The position numbers were made by a program, and so were the translations under genes. From positions 1 to 39,632 of the forward strand of contig JANYDK010000143.1 in the NCBI GenBank assembly GCA_025363655.1: 39,632 bases of DNA, read 5' to 3'. Origin of the DNA: Deltaproteobacteria bacterium (GTDB taxonomy: Bacteria > Myxococcota_A > Polyangia > Polyangiales > JADJMO01). Under the pieces are notes generated by a model. It worked only from the letters and a program-made list of their open reading frames with translations, searched no databases and had not been told where the DNA came from. Shown here piece after piece: positions 29,323 through 39,410 of the stretch (the stretch's first letter is position 1; each line of letters opens with the position of its first letter).

Positions 29323-32300
29323 ATGGTTCTCTGCGCCCGCTTCGCCAGTTTCTCCACCGTGCTCGTTCTGGGTGGCCTCGTCAGCTTCGCCAGCTTCGGT
29401 TTCGGGTGTTCCGGAGGGCGGGCGCCCGCATCCGACGAGCTCGACGCGGCCGTGCCGAAGCCCGCCGAGACCCCCGTCGAGCGCGCGGAATCCACACTCG
29501 CGGTGCTTCGCGCCCAGCCCGTCTTCGCCTCGGCATTGCGTGCGCGGAGTGAGTTCCGCATCGAGGCCGGCCAGCCGGTCTTCCCCGACGCCCGACTGCG
29601 CGTGAAGGCGCCGACGAAGGCGAACGGCGCGCTCCGCCTCGAAGCACGCGGGGACGACGATGCTTGGATCGAAGTGCGCGCGCTCGATGCGAGCGACGTC
29701 GCGGCGACCTTGCGCGACGGCGTCCTCACGTATCCGGCCAGCGTCGGCGGCGGAGATTTGGTCTTTGTCGGCAGCGCCACCAGCCTCGAGGAAGCCCGGG
29801 TGCTCCGCGAGCCGGTCGCCGAGTATCACGCGCGCTATTCGATTCGCCTCGGCGCACGCATCGTCAGCGTCCGCGCGCGCGAGCATCGCATCGAGTGCGT
29901 CGACGCGAACGGCTACGTCGTCATCGGCACCGCGCCGCTCTACGCTCTCGACGCGAAGGGTGTTCGCCGCGAGCTCGACGTCGCCGTCACGATGAGCAAT
30001 TCGGGCGAAGCGACCGTCGACGTCAGCGGCTCCTTTGCCGAGCTTTCGGCGCCGATCGTCGTCGATCCGGTGTGGAGCACGGTCTCGCCGATGTCGGTCG
30101 CGCGCCTCGGACACGCCGGCATCGCGCTCAAGGACGGGACCATTCTCGTCACCGGTGGCCAAAGCGCCGGCGTGTTCTTCACCTCGAGCGAGGTCTACGA
30201 CCCGAAGACGAACACCTGGACCACGGTCGGCTCGATGAACCGCGCGCGCGGCGGCAATTCGCTGGCGCTGACGCCGAGCGGGAAGGTGATGATCGCCAGC
30301 TCGTACGTCTACGACATGCCCGTCGAGTCCTACGACCCGGCGACGAAGACATGGTCCCCGGTCACCGTCGGCTCCGGCGTCGGCGTCGGCGACCACGTCT
30401 TCACGTTCTCGACGGGGAAGATCGCGATGGTCGGCGGGGAATCGATCTCGCTCTACGACGAGACCACCGCCAAGTGGACCCTCGGCACCAGCGGACCTGC
30501 GCCGCGTGGCTCCGCCGGAATCGGTTTGCTCGCCGACGGACGTCTGATGTTCGCGGGCGGGCTCGATTTTCCGGGCAAATGGTACAGCCAGGTCGACATC
30601 TACGACCCCAAGACCGACAGCTGGACGACGACCGGGCCGCTCTCCGCGCACCGCACCGATGCCGCCGTCATCGGCCTCGCCGACGGCGGCGCGTTGGCGG
30701 TCGGCGGCAACGTCGCCGGAGTGAGCGGCGTCACCATCGTCGAACGCTACGACGTCGTCGCCAAGACCTGGTCGATCGTCGCGCCGTTGCCGGCGTCCAC
30801 CGCCTCCATCGGCGGCACACCGACGCTGACGATGCTCGCCGGGGGTCGCGTGATGATCCCCGAGCTCGGCTACGGCGGCAAAGGCGCGGCGATCTTCGAT
30901 CCGGCAGCGAACGAGTGGCGCAGCACCACCCCCTCCACGTCTTCGCACGGCTCCTCCCCACCGCTCATCGTCAGCGGCACGGCCGTGTACGTCATCGGTG
31001 GCAACGACGACAAAGGCGCGGCCGGTGCCGACGTCGAGAAGTTCGTGCCCATGGCCAACGGAAGCGCCTGCGTCGCCACGGCGCCTGGGGACTGCGTCTC
31101 CGGCTTCTGCACCGACGGCGTCTGCTGCAACCGCTCCTGCACCGGTCCGTGCGAACGCTGTGACGCCAGCGGATCGGCCGGCACCTGCAGCGGTCTCACC
31201 GGCGCTCCGCACGCGACGCGCACGTGTGATCCCTACGCCGCTTGCAGCGCCGGCTCGTGCGCGAGCTCGTGCACCGTCGACGGCGATTGCACGGCGACGA
31301 GCTGGTGCTCGAGCGGCAAGTGCGCGCCGAGGGTCGGGTCGGGAAAGGCCTGCACCAGCGGACGTGGTTGCAACTCCGGCAACTGCGTCGACGGCGTATG
31401 CTGCGACACCGCCTGCAGCGGCCAGTGTGAAGCCTGCAACGTCGGCGGCAAAGAGGGCGTCTGCACGCCGGTGACCGGCACTCCGAAGGGCGCCCGTCCT
31501 GCGTGCACCGACGGCAGCAGCGAGTGCGGCGCCGTCTGCAACGGCACCAAGCGTGACGCGTGCGTCTATCTCGCCGCGGGGAGCCGGCCGTGCGGAAAGG
31601 CGAGCTGCCTCACCGGCGTCGAGACCCATCCGAGCACCTGCGACGGCAAGGGCGCGTGCTCCGACAAACCGTCGTCGTGCGGCAACTACGCGTGCGGCGT
31701 CGACATCTGCAAGAGCGCGTGCGGCACCAAGGCCGACTGCACGCCGGGCAACCTCTGCGTCTCCAACGCCTGCGTCCCCGCGCCGGGCCTCGGCGATCCT
31801 TGCAAGGACGCGATCGAGTGCTCGACCGGCTATTGCGTCGACGGCGTCTGCTGTGGCGTCCCCTCCTGCGGCGCCGGAAGCACCTGCGCAGCGCCTTCGA
31901 AGGCCGGTCACTGCACGCACGACCTCGGGCTCGCGTGCTCGGTCGACGACCAGTGCGCGTCGGGGAAGTGCGTCGACGGCGTCTGCTGCGAGAGCGCGTG
32001 CAACGGCAACTGCGAAGCGTGCGACGTGCCCGGCAACAACGGTCACTGCACGGCCGTGAAGGGCGCGCCGCGCGGAGCCAGGCCGGCCTGCGCCAGCGAC
32101 ACCAAGAACGTCTGCGCGCAGATGCTCTGCGATGGCGTCGATCACACGGCATGCAAGTCGTACGTCGCCGCGGCCGTCACTTGCCACCCGCGTGCATGTA
32201 CCGACGGCACGCTCGTCGAGGCCGTCGCCTGCGATGGCAAGGGCGCCTGTCCGGCGACCGCGCCGAAATCATGCGGTGGTTATGCATGTGACCCCAAAGG

Positions 32301-35300
32301 GCAGGAATGCCTGCGTATTTGTCACTCGGCCGCCGAGTGCACGGCCGGCTACGTCTGCGACAAGGGAGAGTGCCGCGTGGCCACTGCCGCCTGTTCGATC
32401 GACGGCGCGTCTGCGGTCGCCGCCGACGGGACCGTGACCTCGTGCGAGAGCTATCGTTGCCGTGGCGACCACTGCTTGACGACCTGCACGGCCTCCGACG
32501 ATTGCGCGGCCGGCAAGACCTGCGGCGCCGATGGGACCTGCAGCGACGTCGCGCCGTCCGATGGCGGCGGTGGATGCAGCGTCGGCGCGGGCCCGAGTGC
32601 GCTCCCCAGCCGAGGCGGACCTCTCGCCGCGTTGTTCGGGCTCCTGGCGATGGGCGGCGTGTTCCTCCGACGTCGTCGGGCGATCGCGAGCGCGGCCGTC
32701 GCGACGCTCGGCTGCGTCGCCTGCTCGTCGCCGACGATCAGCACCGAAGGCAAAGAGTCGAACGGCTCGAACGAGAGCCACACCTCGTCAGCGCAGCCGG
32801 CGAAGACGCCGGTGATCGCCATGACACCGACCCGTCCCGAAGGCGTGATCGATGCGCTCGGGGCGATCGCTCCCATCGGCGGACGGCTCCACGGCAGCGG
32901 AACGCTCGTCTCGTCGTCGCACGGCTTGCGGCTCGCCGAGGTGACGAAGCCCTCCGGTTGGACGCCGGTCGGAGGCGACCGATTGCTCGCGACGCTCCCC
33001 TCGAGCGCCGACGCGAACCTGCACCTCGAGATCGTCGGCGCCCACGGAATGGCCGTCGATCTGCGCGCCGAAGACGTCGGCAGCGTGGCACCGACCTTGG
33101 TCGGCAACGTCGCCGTCTATCGCAATGTCGACGAAGAGACCGACCTCGTCCACCTCGCCGACGTGCACGGTGCCGAGGAGCTGCGCCTGCTCCGCGTCGC
33201 GCGAGATCGGACCTTCACCTATCGACTGCACCTCGGCGCCGGCGCGGCGTCGGCCCGCGTGATCGGCGATCACCTGGAAATTCTCGACGAAAATGGGATC
33301 GCGCGACTCCGCACCGCGCCGCTCGTCGCCTGGGATGCCCGGGGAGAAACGCGCTCGCTGCACGTCGAGCTCGCCCCCGACGCCGACGGCTATCGAATGA
33401 CCATCCACCTCGACGCGACGGGACTCACGGCGCCGATCGCCGTGGATCCGGCGTGGTCGAGCACCGCCGACACCCACTGGGGACACGCGCCGGGCATCGC
33501 GGTCCGCACCACCAAGGGCACCGTCTTCGCGTTCGACGCGGTCAGCGGTGACCACCGCGACCTCTACGATCCGACGACGTCGACGTGGAAAGACGTCGAC
33601 GACGGCATGCTCTACCAGCGCCACAACTCGGGCTTCGCGGTGCCGCTCGCATCCGGGAAAATCCTCATCGGCGGCGGCTTCGACTCGGCGACCGCGCGGG
33701 TCTCGGAGCTGTGGGATCCGACGACGGGTGCGTACACGCTCGGTGGCTCGCAGGCCTTCTCGCGCGCCAACGTCGGCACGGCGTTCGTACCCGCGCCCTA
33801 CAACGTCTCGCTCGTCATCGGCGGCAACAACAGTGCGACCTGCGACCCCAACGTCTACCGCTACGACGAAGCGACCTCGAAATACGTGGCCGTCGCGTCG
33901 ATGTCGATCGGCCGTGTGGCGTTCACCACCGTCGTCCTATCGACTGGCAAGGTGCTCGTCGTCGGCGGCGCCGCCGGCACAGTCAGTGATTTGGTCGCTA
34001 CCGGAGAAATCTACGATCCGGCCACCAACACCTGGAAAGCGTCCGCGCCGATGTCGGTCGCGCGCAGCGCCCACTCGGCCATTCGTCTGACGAGCGGCAA
34101 GGTGCTGGTCGTCGGCAACTCCCACTACGGCAGCGGCGACGGCACGACCGCCGAAATCTACGATCCGACGACCGACAAATGGACGAGCCTCCCCAAGATG
34201 GCGTTCGCCCGTGAAACGCCGGTGCTCGCGCTCCTCCCGAGTGGGCGCGTCCTCATCGCTGGCGGCAACGACGCCACCACCACCACCGAGGTCTTCGATC
34301 CGGCGACGAACACCTTCGTCCTCGCCGGCGCGATGGCCGACGCGCGCGCCGAGCCCGCAGGCACCGCTCTCGCCGACGGCTCGGTCCTCGTCTTCGGCGG
34401 AAACAAGAAATCCGAGGTGCTCTTCTCCGCCGAACGTTTCGTCGAACAGGCGACCGGCAACGCATGCACCGGCGATGGCGACTGCACGAGCGGCCACTGC
34501 GCCGACGGCGTGTGCTGCGCGACCACTTGCACCGGCGCTTGCTCCTCGTGCGGCCTCGCCGCATCGAAGGGCACCTGCTCGCCGACGACGGGCGCGCCAC
34601 TTCCTGGACATGGGAGCTGCGCGCCCTACCTGGTCTGCGTGGCCGGCGCCTGCGGGAGCACCTGCACCGCCGACACCGAATGCACCACCGGCAACTACTG
34701 CAACAGCGGCAAGTGCGTCCCGAAGAAGACCAACGGCCTGGCCTGCGCCGCTGCCCGCGAGTGCGGTTCCGCTGCCTGCGCCGATGGCGTCTGCTGCAAC
34801 GTCGCCTGCGACGGTCAGTGCGAAGCCTGCGCCGAGACCGGCACTGTCGGCACCTGCACGGCGGTCAGCGGGCTCCCGCGCACGACCCACGTGGCGTGCG
34901 ACGGCATCACCATCGGCGGCGCGTGCGGCTCCCACTGCAACGGCGTCGAACGAAAGACGTGCGTCTACCCCGCGGCGGCCGCGAGCCCTTGCTCTGGTGA
35001 TTCGTGCGGCGGCGGCATCGAGACGCACGCCAGCTCGTGCGATGGCGTCGGACGCTGCAACGACGCCCCCAAGCACTGCGGCGCGTATGCCTGCGGCGGG
35101 ACCAAGTGCAAAACGGCCTGCGCGGTGAGCAGCGATTGCGTCCTCGGCTTCGTCTGCAAGGGCGTCGTCTGCGTCCCGGCCCCGAGCCTCGGTCAGCCCT
35201 GCTCGTCGACGGTGCCTTGCGATGGTGGCCTCTTCTGCACCGACGGCGTCTGCTGCGGAGAAGCTTCCTGCGGCTCCAGCAAGTCGTGCGCGCTTCCCGC

Positions 35301-36114
35301 AACGAAGGGGACGTGCGCGAAGGTGAACGCCGAAGCGTGCGTCAGCGACGGCGAGTGCGGCTCTGGCGCTTGCGTCGACGGCGTCTGCTGCTCGAGCACC
35401 TGCGACGGACAGTGCCAGGCCTGCGACGAGCCCGGCAACGTCGGCAAGTGCGTGCCGGTCAAAGGCAAGCCGCACGGCAAGCGCATCGCCTGCGAATCGA
35501 GCAAAGATCACCCCTGCGAATCGACGGTCTGCGACGGCAGCGACGGCAGCCGTTGCGTGGCCTTCGTCGGCTCCGAGGTAAGTTGCGCCGCGTCGACGTG
35601 CGTCGATGGCGTCGTCAGCGACCCGGCCACCTGCGTCGCCGGAGCGTGCAGCACGCCGGTCACCCACTCGTGCGCACCTTACCGTTGCACGAGCACCGGC
35701 GCCTGCGGCCTGACCTGCGCCAAGAGCGAAGAGTGCGCAGCGGGCTTCGTCTGCAACCTCGCCGACAAGAAGTGCGTCGCCTCGAAGCGTCGATGCTCCG
35801 ACGACGGCGCCTCGGTCCTCGATCCGGAAGGGAGCTCGTTCACCTGCGCACCGTTCCTCTGCCGCGCCGACGACTGCCTCGTCGAGTGCAAAGGCGCCGA
35901 CGATTGCGCCCCTGGCCTCGTCTGCGACGGCACCGCACACTGCTCGCTCCCGCGAACCGAGACGGGCACCGACGGTGGCAGCGGTGGTTGCTCGACCAGC
36001 GGCAACGGCACGAGCGGCACCAACGGCCGTGGCACGGGCAACACGGGCACTCTCGTCTTCACGATGGTGACGGCTGGCTTGGCCTTGGCCGGGTTGCGAC
36101 GCCGTCGCCGCTGA
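29323..36114 (+). CDS. two-module Kelch/Cys-rich surface protein with internal and terminal MYXO-CTERM
   Basis: The product is 2263 residues in one uninterrupted frame, built from two paralogous modules. Module 1: a signal with a Cys near residue 29 (GFGC); a beta-rich region to about residue 250 ending IVVDPVWS; Kelch propeller blades (about 256-580, for example SSEVYDPKTNTWTTVGSM); a Cys-rich zone (about 583-1080) with repeated G-x-C-x-D-G-V-C-C and C-x-G-x-C-x-x-C; then GGGGCSVG, a hydrophobic helix and RRRR (about 1082-1117), a MYXO-CTERM. Module 2 repeats this order: signal-like stretch ending GCVAC, domain ending IAVDPAWS (about 1378), Kelch, Cys-rich zone from about 1713, and a final GGCSTSG, helix and RRRRR. 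Likely a cell-surface adhesin. The last 56 bases overlap the convergent gene. Confidence 0.88.
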   Translation: MVLCARFASFSTVLVLGGLVSFASFGFGCSGGRAPASDELDAAVPKPAETPVERAESTLAVLRAQPVFASALRARSEFRIEAGQPVFPDARLRVKAPTKANGALRLEARGDDDAWIEVRALDASDVAATLRDGVLTYPASVGGGDLVFVGSATSLEEARVLREPVAEYHARYSIRLGARIVSVRAREHRIECVDANGYVVIGTAPLYALDAKGVRRELDVAVTMSNSGEATVDVSGSFAELSAPIVVDPVWSTVSPMSVARLGHAGIALKDGTILVTGGQSAGVFFTSSEVYDPKTNTWTTVGSMNRARGGNSLALTPSGKVMIASSYVYDMPVESYDPATKTWSPVTVGSGVGVGDHVFTFSTGKIAMVGGESISLYDETTAKWTLGTSGPAPRGSAGIGLLADGRLMFAGGLDFPGKWYSQVDIYDPKTDSWTTTGPLSAHRTDAAVIGLADGGALAVGGNVAGVSGVTIVERYDVVAKTWSIVAPLPASTASIGGTPTLTMLAGGRVMIPELGYGGKGAAIFDPAANEWRSTTPSTSSHGSSPPLIVSGTAVYVIGGNDDKGAAGADVEKFVPMANGSACVATAPGDCVSGFCTDGVCCNRSCTGPCERCDASGSAGTCSGLTGAPHATRTCDPYAACSAGSCASSCTVDGDCTATSWCSSGKCAPRVGSGKACTSGRGCNSGNCVDGVCCDTACSGQCEACNVGGKEGVCTPVTGTPKGARPACTDGSSECGAVCNGTKRDACVYLAAGSRPCGKASCLTGVETHPSTCDGKGACSDKPSSCGNYACGVDICKSACGTKADCTPGNLCVSNACVPAPGLGDPCKDAIECSTGYCVDGVCCGVPSCGAGSTCAAPSKAGHCTHDLGLACSVDDQCASGKCVDGVCCESACNGNCEACDVPGNNGHCTAVKGAPRGARPACASDTKNVCAQMLCDGVDHTACKSYVAAAVTCHPRACTDGTLVEAVACDGKGACPATAPKSCGGYACDPKGQECLRICHSAAECTAGYVCDKGECRVATAACSIDGASAVAADGTVTSCESYRCRGDHCLTTCTASDDCAAGKTCGADGTCSDVAPSDGGGGCSVGAGPSALPSRGGPLAALFGLLAMGGVFLRRRRAIASAAVATLGCVACSSPTISTEGKESNGSNESHTSSAQPAKTPVIAMTPTRPEGVIDALGAIAPIGGRLHGSGTLVSSSHGLRLAEVTKPSGWTPVGGDRLLATLPSSADANLHLEIVGAHGMAVDLRAEDVGSVAPTLVGNVAVYRNVDEETDLVHLADVHGAEELRLLRVARDRTFTYRLHLGAGAASARVIGDHLEILDENGIARLRTAPLVAWDARGETRSLHVELAPDADGYRMTIHLDATGLTAPIAVDPAWSSTADTHWGHAPGIAVRTTKGTVFAFDAVSGDHRDLYDPTTSTWKDVDDGMLYQRHNSGFAVPLASGKILIGGGFDSATARVSELWDPTTGAYTLGGSQAFSRANVGTAFVPAPYNVSLVIGGNNSATCDPNVYRYDEATSKYVAVASMSIGRVAFTTVVLSTGKVLVVGGAAGTVSDLVATGEIYDPATNTWKASAPMSVARSAHSAIRLTSGKVLVVGNSHYGSGDGTTAEIYDPTTDKWTSLPKMAFARETPVLALLPSGRVLIAGGNDATTTTEVFDPATNTFVLAGAMADARAEPAGTALADGSVLVFGGNKKSEVLFSAERFVEQATGNACTGDGDCTSGHCADGVCCATTCTGACSSCGLAASKGTCSPTTGAPLPGHGSCAPYLVCVAGACGSTCTADTECTTGNYCNSGKCVPKKTNGLACAAARECGSAACADGVCCNVACDGQCEACAETGTVGTCTAVSGLPRTTHVACDGITIGGACGSHCNGVERKTCVYPAAAASPCSGDSCGGGIETHASSCDGVGRCNDAPKHCGAYACGGTKCKTACAVSSDCVLGFVCKGVVCVPAPSLGQPCSSTVPCDGGLFCTDGVCCGEASCGSSKSCALPATKGTCAKVNAEACVSDGECGSGACVDGVCCSSTCDGQCQACDEPGNVGKCVPVKGKPHGKRIACESSKDHPCESTVCDGSDGSRCVAFVGSEVSCAASTCVDGVVSDPATCVAGACSTPVTHSCAPYRCTSTGACGLTCAKSEECAAGFVCNLADKKCVASKRRCSDDGASVLDPEGSSFTCAPFLCRADDCLVECKGADDCAPGLVCDGTAHCSLPRTETGTDGGSGGCSTSGNGTSGTNGRGTGNTGTLVFTMVTAGLALAGLRRRRR
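32569..32736 (+). other. internal MYXO-CTERM that doubles as a lipoprotein-type signal sequence
   Basis: Within the 2263-codon gene, GGGGCSVG is followed by LAALFGLLAMGGVF and RRRR. Directly after comes a second hydrophobic run ending LGCVAC and a Ser/Asn/Thr linker. The in-frame ATG at 32650 (Met1110) would give an n-region MGGVFLRRRR for the second signal. No stop codon separates the modules. A strong ribosome binding site before 32650 is not seen. Confidence 0.7.
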
Positions 36115-37276: not shown

Positions 37277-37454
37277 GCGCCCATCCTACGATGTCGAGCA
37301 CCGACATCCACGTAGTCACTGAATCTTGACCTCCGGTCGCGTCTCGTCCTCGAGCCAATACGCCGATACCATCGGTCGCGAGCTTCGCAGCCTCGTACTT
37401 CGCGCGGCGAGCGGCGCCCTTGCCACGTCCGCCGCTCTCCGCTCCGATGCACCC

Positions 37455-39410
37455 ATGCACCGAAGTTGGTCGCTCGTCTTCCTCGGCTCTCTGTGCGCGG
37501 TGGCTGCTTGCAGTCACCACACCGATTCGACCGACACCCCACCCGCGACCGACCCCACCGTCTACGCAGCCTACGGCCCCGCAGCGACGACCCAACTCAC
37601 CCCCTACCCTTCCAACCGCTACACGCGCCCCGACACCACCGCCGCCACCGGCCTCCGCGTCGACATCTCTCCAACGACCACCGGCGACTCCCTCATCAAC
37701 AAGTATGCCGGCACCGTCGCCGAGCTCGACGAAATCGACGGCTTTTCCACGCTCGGCGGCGTCTGCGCCAACTTCACGAGCGACGTCGACGACGCCACGC
37801 TCGTCCGCCCCATCGACGGCTACACGGGTGACGCGTCACCGATGGCGCTCGTCGACGTCGACGACACGAGCCCGGAAAAGGGAAAGGTCTTCGGTCTTCT
37901 CCCGCGTTACTACACGACCGCGGACGGCGAATACGACTACACGAGTGAAGAGCACGTCGTCGTCGCGCAACCGTCGACGCCATTGCGGCCGAAGACGCGC
38001 TACCTCTTCGTGGTCACCGATCGCGTGAAGACACGCAAAGGCGTTGCCATCGGCGCGACCGCCGAAACCGTCGCGCTCGTCACCGGAAATGGCGGCGGCG
38101 ACTACGGCGCGTCCCTCCGAAGCGCGCTCCCGACGCTCGAATCCAAGGCCAAAATCACCCGCTCCCACGTCGTCCTGGCGACGCTCTTCACCACGCGCTC
38201 GGTGCACGACGAGCTGCTCGTGCAAGCGAAAGCTCGCCGCCTCGCGCCCGCGCCGAAGCTGACGACGACCTGGAGCGTCGAGTCGAAAGACCCTGACGGG
38301 CGCGTGCGCTTCGTCGCCAAGTTCGAATCACCCGAGCTACGAAGGCCGAAGCCGAACGGCAAATGGGAAGTCACGGACGGCACGCCGAAGACGCAGTCGA
38401 TCGCGCAGCTCGAGCTCTTCGTCGTCATGTACGACAGGCCCGACGCGAAGAAGCGTCCCATCGCCTATTTCGCGCACGGTCTCGGGGGGACGAAAGATGG
38501 CACCTGGGGCACGGCCGATCGTTTGAAAGACTTGAACCCCGCCGTCTTCGGCATCGACGCACCGGAGCACGGCAGTCGCACGTCACGTCCTCCGAGCTCC
38601 GGTGCCTCGGCCGGCTTCACCGCGGCGCTCGATTTCTTCGGCGTCGACCAAGACAGCAAGTCCTTCGACATCGGCGTCGCACGCGACAATTTCCGACAAA
38701 TGGCGATCGATCAGCTCGAGCTGGTGCGCCTCGTGGCGTCGCTCGACACGCTCGATCTGCTCCCGCTCGGCGCCCCCGATGGCGTGCCTGATCTCGACAC
38801 CTCGCAGATGATCTACCTCGGTCACTCCTTCGGCTCGGTGATGGGTGCGACCATCGCGGCCATCGCTCCCGAAATTCGTGCAGCGACATGGAACGTCGGC
38901 GGCGCGGGCTTGATGGCGCTCCTCCGCGACTCCAACACCTTCAAGATCCTCGTCGACACCCTTCGCCCCATCGGCACACCGACCGGCACGCTCGCGCGCT
39001 TCTTCGCCGCGACCCAGGCGATCGTCGATCCTGGCGATCCCCTCAACTACGCCCCGTACGTCGCCCTCGCCGCGCTCCCTGGCGTCCCTGGCCCGCGCGC
39101 ACGCGACGTGCTCCTCCAAGAAGTCGTCGGCGACACCATCGTCCCCAACAGCACGAGCGAAATGCTCGCCCGCGCCCTCGGCGCCGCCCAACTGACGCCG
39201 ACCGCGAACCCCGTCCCCGGTCTCCCCCAACTCCCCTCACCGCTCACCACCAACACCGCTGGCGCCACCGTCGCGTTCTTCTCCTACGACCACGCCGACG
39301 GCGCCCCCATCGAGCACGGCTCCCTCATCTTCACCGACGACGCCCGCCGCCAGTACGTCTCCTTCTTCCGAAGCTCTCTCGCAGGCCACGCCATCGTCGC
39401 GGCCCCATGA
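37455..39410 (+). CDS. lipase-like alpha/beta hydrolase lipoprotein
   Basis: The product is 651 residues from ATG 37455; the open frame begins 43 codons earlier without signal character. The signal ends AVAAC near residue 18, followed by a Thr/Asp/Pro linker. Residues about 40-230 form a beta-rich N-terminal domain (PYPSNRYTRPD; DGFSTLGG) like that of large bacterial extracellular lipases of the VolA/Pla-1 type. The catalytic domain has YFAHGLGGTKDG (oxyanion) and the elbow GHSFGS with Ser458. HGSLIF near the end may hold the catalytic His. It likely cleaves esters or lipids at the cell surface. Substrate unknown. Confidence 0.85.
   Translation: MHRSWSLVFLGSLCAVAACSHHTDSTDTPPATDPTVYAAYGPAATTQLTPYPSNRYTRPDTTAATGLRVDISPTTTGDSLINKYAGTVAELDEIDGFSTLGGVCANFTSDVDDATLVRPIDGYTGDASPMALVDVDDTSPEKGKVFGLLPRYYTTADGEYDYTSEEHVVVAQPSTPLRPKTRYLFVVTDRVKTRKGVAIGATAETVALVTGNGGGDYGASLRSALPTLESKAKITRSHVVLATLFTTRSVHDELLVQAKARRLAPAPKLTTTWSVESKDPDGRVRFVAKFESPELRRPKPNGKWEVTDGTPKTQSIAQLELFVVMYDRPDAKKRPIAYFAHGLGGTKDGTWGTADRLKDLNPAVFGIDAPEHGSRTSRPPSSGASAGFTAALDFFGVDQDSKSFDIGVARDNFRQMAIDQLELVRLVASLDTLDLLPLGAPDGVPDLDTSQMIYLGHSFGSVMGATIAAIAPEIRAATWNVGGAGLMALLRDSNTFKILVDTLRPIGTPTGTLARFFAATQAIVDPGDPLNYAPYVALAALPGVPGPRARDVLLQEVVGDTIVPNSTSEMLARALGAAQLTPTANPVPGLPQLPSPLTTNTAGATVAFFSYDHADGAPIEHGSLIFTDDARRQYVSFFRSSLAGHAIVAAP

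Follow-up and report, generated by a model that had tools for sequence, protein, structure and literature searches.

A single open reading frame in the 39,632-nucleotide stretch of DNA analysed here (the window) spans positions 29323 to 36114 on the forward strand, where all features of this gene described below also lie, and encodes two full modules in 2263 codons. This raises the question of whether the gene yields one protein anchored twice or two separate surface proteins. We consider it likely that it encodes a polyprotein that is cut by a myxosortase and a signal peptidase into two surface proteins, a cleavage predicted here from sequence. Such a polyprotein, cut at the joint between the modules, is better supported than an uncut, double-anchored protein.

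Module layout of the window gene

The initial annotation had described two complete Kelch/Cys-rich modules within this one gene, and this was confirmed. The frame is open throughout, fused same-frame genes are found in relatives, and the two halves share one order of elements: the export signal comes first, then a beta-rich domain with I[VA]VDP[VA]WS at its end, and the Kelch propeller and Cys-rich zone that follow lead into a tail made of a Cys, a membrane segment and an Arg run. Module 1 begins with a lipoprotein-like N-terminal export signal (29323 to 29409), identified in the sequence, which ends in FGFGC (Cys29); the N-terminal signals of paralogous or related fused ORFs contain LLACSS, LVGCAS, LVACAP and VLGCEA. 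The signal is followed by the beta-rich domain ending in IVVDPVWS (29470 to 30078), which was delimited by its sequence and by the alignment of the halves and is modelled by AlphaFold mainly as strands, by the Kelch beta-propeller (30079 to 31050) and by the Cys-rich zone (31057 to 32565), with its repeats and invariant Cys columns. In module 2, the beta-rich domain, recognised from sequence and the same alignment and ending in IAVDPAWS, extends from 32725 to 33459, the Kelch beta-propeller from 33460 to 34455 and the Cys-rich zone, again with repeats and invariant Cys columns, from 34459 to 35982. The gene ends with a terminal MYXO-CTERM-like tag (35983 to 36111) composed of Cys2223, a transmembrane segment, five Arg and the stop, a layout like that of other terminal tails.

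Alignment of the halves, suggested as a check when the gene was first annotated, showed them to be homologous, with 39.1% identity across 1022 aligned residues and a match over the whole length that is strongest in the Cys-rich zone. Kelch repeats were detected in both halves with Pfam. Module 1 as modelled by AlphaFold (mean pLDDT 82) contains the propeller, whose closest PDB folds are galactose-oxidase-type and other propellers (Z 27, rmsd 3.1, 318 aligned residues). A radical copper oxidase or galactose oxidase function was considered and rejected, as the GlxA family score was 84.6 bits against a cut-off of 800 and the common feature is the propeller fold only. A likely role of the Kelch propellers is the binding of ligands or partners at the surface of the cell. 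Elsewhere in the window, a 694-amino-acid ORF (37326 to 39410) has a weak match to Lipase_bact_N, with a score of 20.3, just below the Pfam cut-off of 22.3.

The joint and its recurrence

The sequence that connects the modules reads ...GGGC(1085)SVGAGPSALPSRGGPLAALFGLLAMGGVFLRRRR(1116-1119)AIASAAVATLGCVAC(1134)SSP..., or, divided into its parts, GGGC-SVGAGPSALPSRGGPLAALFGLLAMGGVFL-RRRR-AIASAAVATLGCVAC-SS. It comprises an internal MYXO-CTERM-like sorting tag (32566 to 32679), defined by alignments of 10 and 13 joints, with Cys1085 (32575-32577), a transmembrane segment and Arg1116-1119 (32668-32679), and an internal export signal (32668 to 32724), in which the Arg run is followed by AIASAAVATLGCVA and Cys1134 (32722-32724) and which is stop-free up to this Cys. 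The Arg run of the module 1 tail doubles as the n-region of the lipoprotein-type signal of module 2. The order of Cys, membrane segment and Arg cluster is found both in the internal joint and in the terminal tail; the second copy lies at the C-terminus, and 1144 in-frame residues come after the internal one. We call the window tags MYXO-CTERM-like because their scores fall under the curated cut-off: the internal tag reached 15.2 bits with TIGR03901, below the 20-bit cut-off, and the terminal tag gave no match to this curated model. The paralogous joint of C63 passes TIGR03382 (18.0 against a cut-off of 15.85). The internal lipobox of the window gene is read as CVAC or TLGC and departs from the canonical [LVI][ASTVI][GAS]C; relatives have LVGC, LGGC, LAGC and LAAC. 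Both the Arg run and the h-region are present in the window gene. AlphaFold modelled the joint hairpin with low confidence (pLDDT 59) and as a single helix instead of a hairpin. The NCBIfam model invert_tail (NF058595) was dismissed as an identity for the joint, as it matches one joint weakly and also matches 11 of 14 control genomes, and is thus unspecific.

In the joint region, no stop was found in frame +1 from 32477 to 32813 or in frame +2 from 32289 to 33549. Because the other two frames are stop-free there, no single insertion or deletion could bring a stop into place directly behind the Arg run. A junction error hiding a stop or a frameshift, which the initial annotation had named as what could undo its reading, was therefore rejected; the joint itself also recurs elsewhere.

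Fused double-module ORFs, 13 in all, were found across all five family genomes examined. Four are in the source genome, the window gene being accompanied by C63, C25 and C127 (2184, 2158 and 2112 codons), and nine more are in the four other genomes (G001:C229 and C60; G002:C1286 and C1119; G003:C64, C35, C45 and C50; and G004:C31, which is truncated at its 5' side). Fused versions are thus present in relatives, which do not always carry two separate genes. Three of the 13 (C60, C45 and C50) were detected by a joint model trained without them. All 13 joints keep the tag Cys, one Arg and the second Cys at a mean column identity of 37%, and their alignment has an invariant G, C and R in the tag. 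Two ORFs of G003 have particular features of their own. In C35, the internal signal peptide (L073:4773-4952) has a hydrophobic core of GLA repeats (GLAGLAGLAGLAGLAGLGC) that probably grew by slippage, and in C50 (L131:2081-6511) module 2 lacks the beta-rich domain and the frame is broken in the Cys-rich zone, possibly by assembly error or decay.

In order to avoid picking joints by their signal, a terminal-tail model was built from 25 terminal tails only, ending at the Arg run, and the five family genomes were searched with it. The 83 matches consisted of 75 terminal tails, with the stop 0-32 codons (median 2) past the Arg run, and eight internal ones. All eight internal tails lead directly into a hydrophobic signal that carries [GAS]C, according to an in-house hydrophobicity and motif rule, not SignalP, against 2 of 74 controls, which were terminal tails translated in frame beyond their own stop (Fisher p = 1.3e-9). 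At least one of the two signal-like controls is the next gene's own signal, in the tandem pair C125. Neither tag of the window gene, internal or terminal, reached the threshold of the model; the gene thus lies outside the 83-tail sample and is placed in the class on the basis of its homology and layout. TIGR03382 was discarded as a census tool, as it recovered five tails only in the genome and is too insensitive for this clade.

The joint also occurs between unrelated domains. The joint model was run against 183 genomes from the order and 377 from the phylum; as only 36 or 17 candidates were scored in each genome, the resulting counts are lower bounds. Joints were found between Amidase_3 plus CarboxypepD_reg and a PD40 propeller, between GH15 and an alpha-amylase with CBM, between a cadherin/Big_9 adhesin and OmpA, and between a part without domain assignment and an SMP30/NHL propeller. 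The window gene is one of at least about 35 ORFs with the same kind of joint. In the second of these pairs, L302:2815-7437 (G017:C50:21814-26436) carries GH15-type glucoamylase and alpha-amylase/CBM regions in one frame around a MYXO-CTERM-plus-lipoprotein-signal joint, that is, two starch enzymes in one precursor.

The combination of amidase and propeller is encoded in one frame in at least 13 genomes, namely at least 11 of the order, with identity as low as 38%, and at least two more of the phylum, and these include G015 (one contig) and G030 (two contigs). Its joints retain the Cys, the Arg run and the signal, the letters of which vary; most of these joints have a lipobox as cleavage site, and two have an AxA-like one (TARA-H and GHA-D). 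A signal that is retained while its letters change would be expected if selection acts on a cleavable signal and not on a specific sequence. Between G030 and G015, codon differences across the joint are few, too few to gauge selection on it. The Amidase_3-joint-PD40-type arrangement is seen in L297:2038-4344, L298:2544-4832 and the orthologues L312-L320, from several families, with a lipobox or an AxA-like signal.

A quick tree built from 40 modules was used to examine the history of the fusion. In it, the first halves of C63, C25 and C127 form one clade (support 100), their second halves another (100), and both clades are sisters (100), a topology that points to one tandem duplication, fusion and subsequent copying as a fused gene. 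Half 1 of the window gene groups with half 1 of G002:C1119 (99, together with half 1 of G003:C50) and half 2 with half 2 (99). Because each half pairs with its matching half, the window fusion probably predates the split of the genera concerned, and the simple story of a recent, local duplication giving rise to the window halves was rejected at the level of this quick tree. The halves of G003:C45 are mutual sisters (100), which speaks for a separate duplication. The source genome also contains an unfused tandem pair, G000:C125 (L051:2474-9040), whose 1077- and 1090-amino-acid products are encoded by genes that share a frame and are separated by one stop and about 20 codons, and which likely represents the pre-fusion state. 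The tandem duplication followed by merging into one reading frame that the initial annotation had proposed is supported by the homologous halves and by this in-frame pair, with two refinements: the duplication is old, and the case is recurrent rather than singular.

Predicted processing of the precursor

In the polyprotein that we favour, module 1 would be exported via its N-terminal signal until the membrane segment of the tag stopped the transfer, with the Arg run staying in the cytoplasm. As the n-region of the next signal, this Arg run would bring the chain back into the translocon, and module 2 would be exported in turn. A myxosortase cut beside the tag Cys would free module 1, whereas module 2 would be freed by Lgt and LspA, which would lipidate and cut at the second Cys, or, in some relatives, by a signal peptidase I cut at an AxA-type site instead. 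The terminal tag of module 2 would be processed afterwards. The expected products are two surface-anchored Kelch/Cys-rich proteins, co-exported in a 1:1 ratio, the short hairpin between them being discarded. The source genome encodes the myxosortase MrtC (246 bits against a cut-off of 195) as well as LspA and Lgt. Experiments in Myxococcus xanthus have shown that MrtX cleaves the MYXO-CTERM of TraA, a reaction that needs the Cys and also works in E. coli (PMC11980579).

If the protein were left uncut, the joint would be an inner-membrane hairpin and the modules a tethered pair. The continuous frame agrees with this reading, and the succession of a membrane segment, the Arg run and another hydrophobic segment would suit a stable hairpin. 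However, a structural hairpin needs neither the tag Cys nor a Cys or AxA at the cleavage site, yet nearly every joint keeps both amid letter changes, and lipobox and AxA-type sites are swapped among orthologous joints. Moreover, MYXO-CTERM is cut in a known pathway (PMC11980579), and a myxosortase is encoded here, all of which makes an uncut product unlikely.

Alternatively, ribosomes could start module 2 within the module 1 tag, as in overlapping genes. In the window joint and in most others, an ATG, GTG or TTG lies ahead of the Arg run, and a start there would yield a fair signal peptide. In the window these codons are an in-frame ATG and GTG, 10 and 7 codons ahead of the end of the Arg run, which may serve as additional internal starts, with no Shine-Dalgarno match upstream of either. 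Against this stands the finding that 7 of the 31 parsed joints have no nearby ATG, GTG or TTG, that 19 have no ATG and that a Shine-Dalgarno-like site is found in one, while G003:C64 has none of the three start codons anywhere between the two Cys. The long product would, besides, still be made. We hold this explanation to be very improbable, and as a general route internal initiation appears unlikely on these counts. A sequencing or assembly artefact fusing two tandem genes, which the draft state of the window's contig, in a genome of 150 contigs, might suggest, is scarcely credible, given that no stop is within reach in any frame, that there are at least about 35 similar cases, including those in the one-contig G015 and the two-contig G030, and that a fused orthologue is present in another genus.

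Cleavage at the joint thus remains our preferred reading of the window gene. Beyond it, we lean towards a Myxococcota-wide polyprotein strategy, in which a hairpin of sorting tag and signal peptide with a shared Arg cluster would allow a precursor to be matured by myxosortase and signal peptidase I or II, with coupled, equimolar display of functionally paired proteins. Glucoamylase and alpha-amylase, an amidase and a propeller, or twin Kelch modules would be examples of pairs displayed in this way. The back-to-back arrangement of tag and signal, the unrelated partners and the persistence across bacterial families suggest that the joint is a reusable device. Should the cuts prove real, annotation tools that expect sorting tags at C-termini only and signal peptides at N-termini only would miss the class, and the joints would allow two questions to be tested cleanly, namely what the translocon does with a stop-transfer segment when a cleavable signal comes after it, and whether myxosortase requires a free C-terminus.

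Relation to known systems

Bacteria rarely make polyproteins, which are common in viruses. In the FbcH cytochrome bc1 precursor of Bradyrhizobium, an internal signal sequence is cut to give two envelope proteins; its upstream product is an integral membrane protein that is not known to carry a sorting tag, and a single signal peptidase cut is involved. Viral polyproteins that are cut by the host signal peptidase, such as those of the Flaviviridae (PMC7601889), resemble the window gene in that several exported domains of one chain are threaded by stop-transfer segments and signal segments in turn, but they are viral and eukaryotic and have no sortase-like enzyme acting on the stop-transfer segment.

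A close likeness is to MYXO-CTERM sorting by the myxosortases MrtX, MrtC and MrtP, with which the window gene shares the tripartite tag of Cys, membrane segment and Arg run and, in its source genome, MrtC. The known tag is C-terminal, whereas the window gene has a copy in mid-protein with an Arg run that leads into a second export signal. TraA and TraB are similar in that a MYXO-CTERM protein is translated just before its partner, but they are encoded by two overlapping ORFs (PMC11980579) and not in one frame as here. Guo, Haft and Wall regarded internal MYXO-CTERM motifs as rare and MXAN_5598 of Myxococcus xanthus as atypical, and suggested a fusion of two genes with processing of the N-terminal part (PMC11980579). 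MXAN_5598 has an internal MYXO-CTERM between an N-terminal adhesin and a C-terminal OmpA, and G426:C17, identified in this analysis, is similarly laid out, its tag being followed by an AxA-type signal; the window gene has Kelch/Cys-rich modules on either side of the joint instead of this domain pair. The passages of PMC11980579 consulted contain no description of an export signal directly after the tag, of homologous double modules or of recurrence across unrelated domain pairs. A recurrent class of sorting-tag/signal-peptide hairpins was not found in the literature searched, and an earlier mention in companion bioinformatic work is possible. On the sequence comparisons made here, the present data extend the single published case of an internal tag to a recurrent class, the added element, which would let it function as a polyprotein, being a predicted export signal of either signal-peptidase type directly behind the tag.
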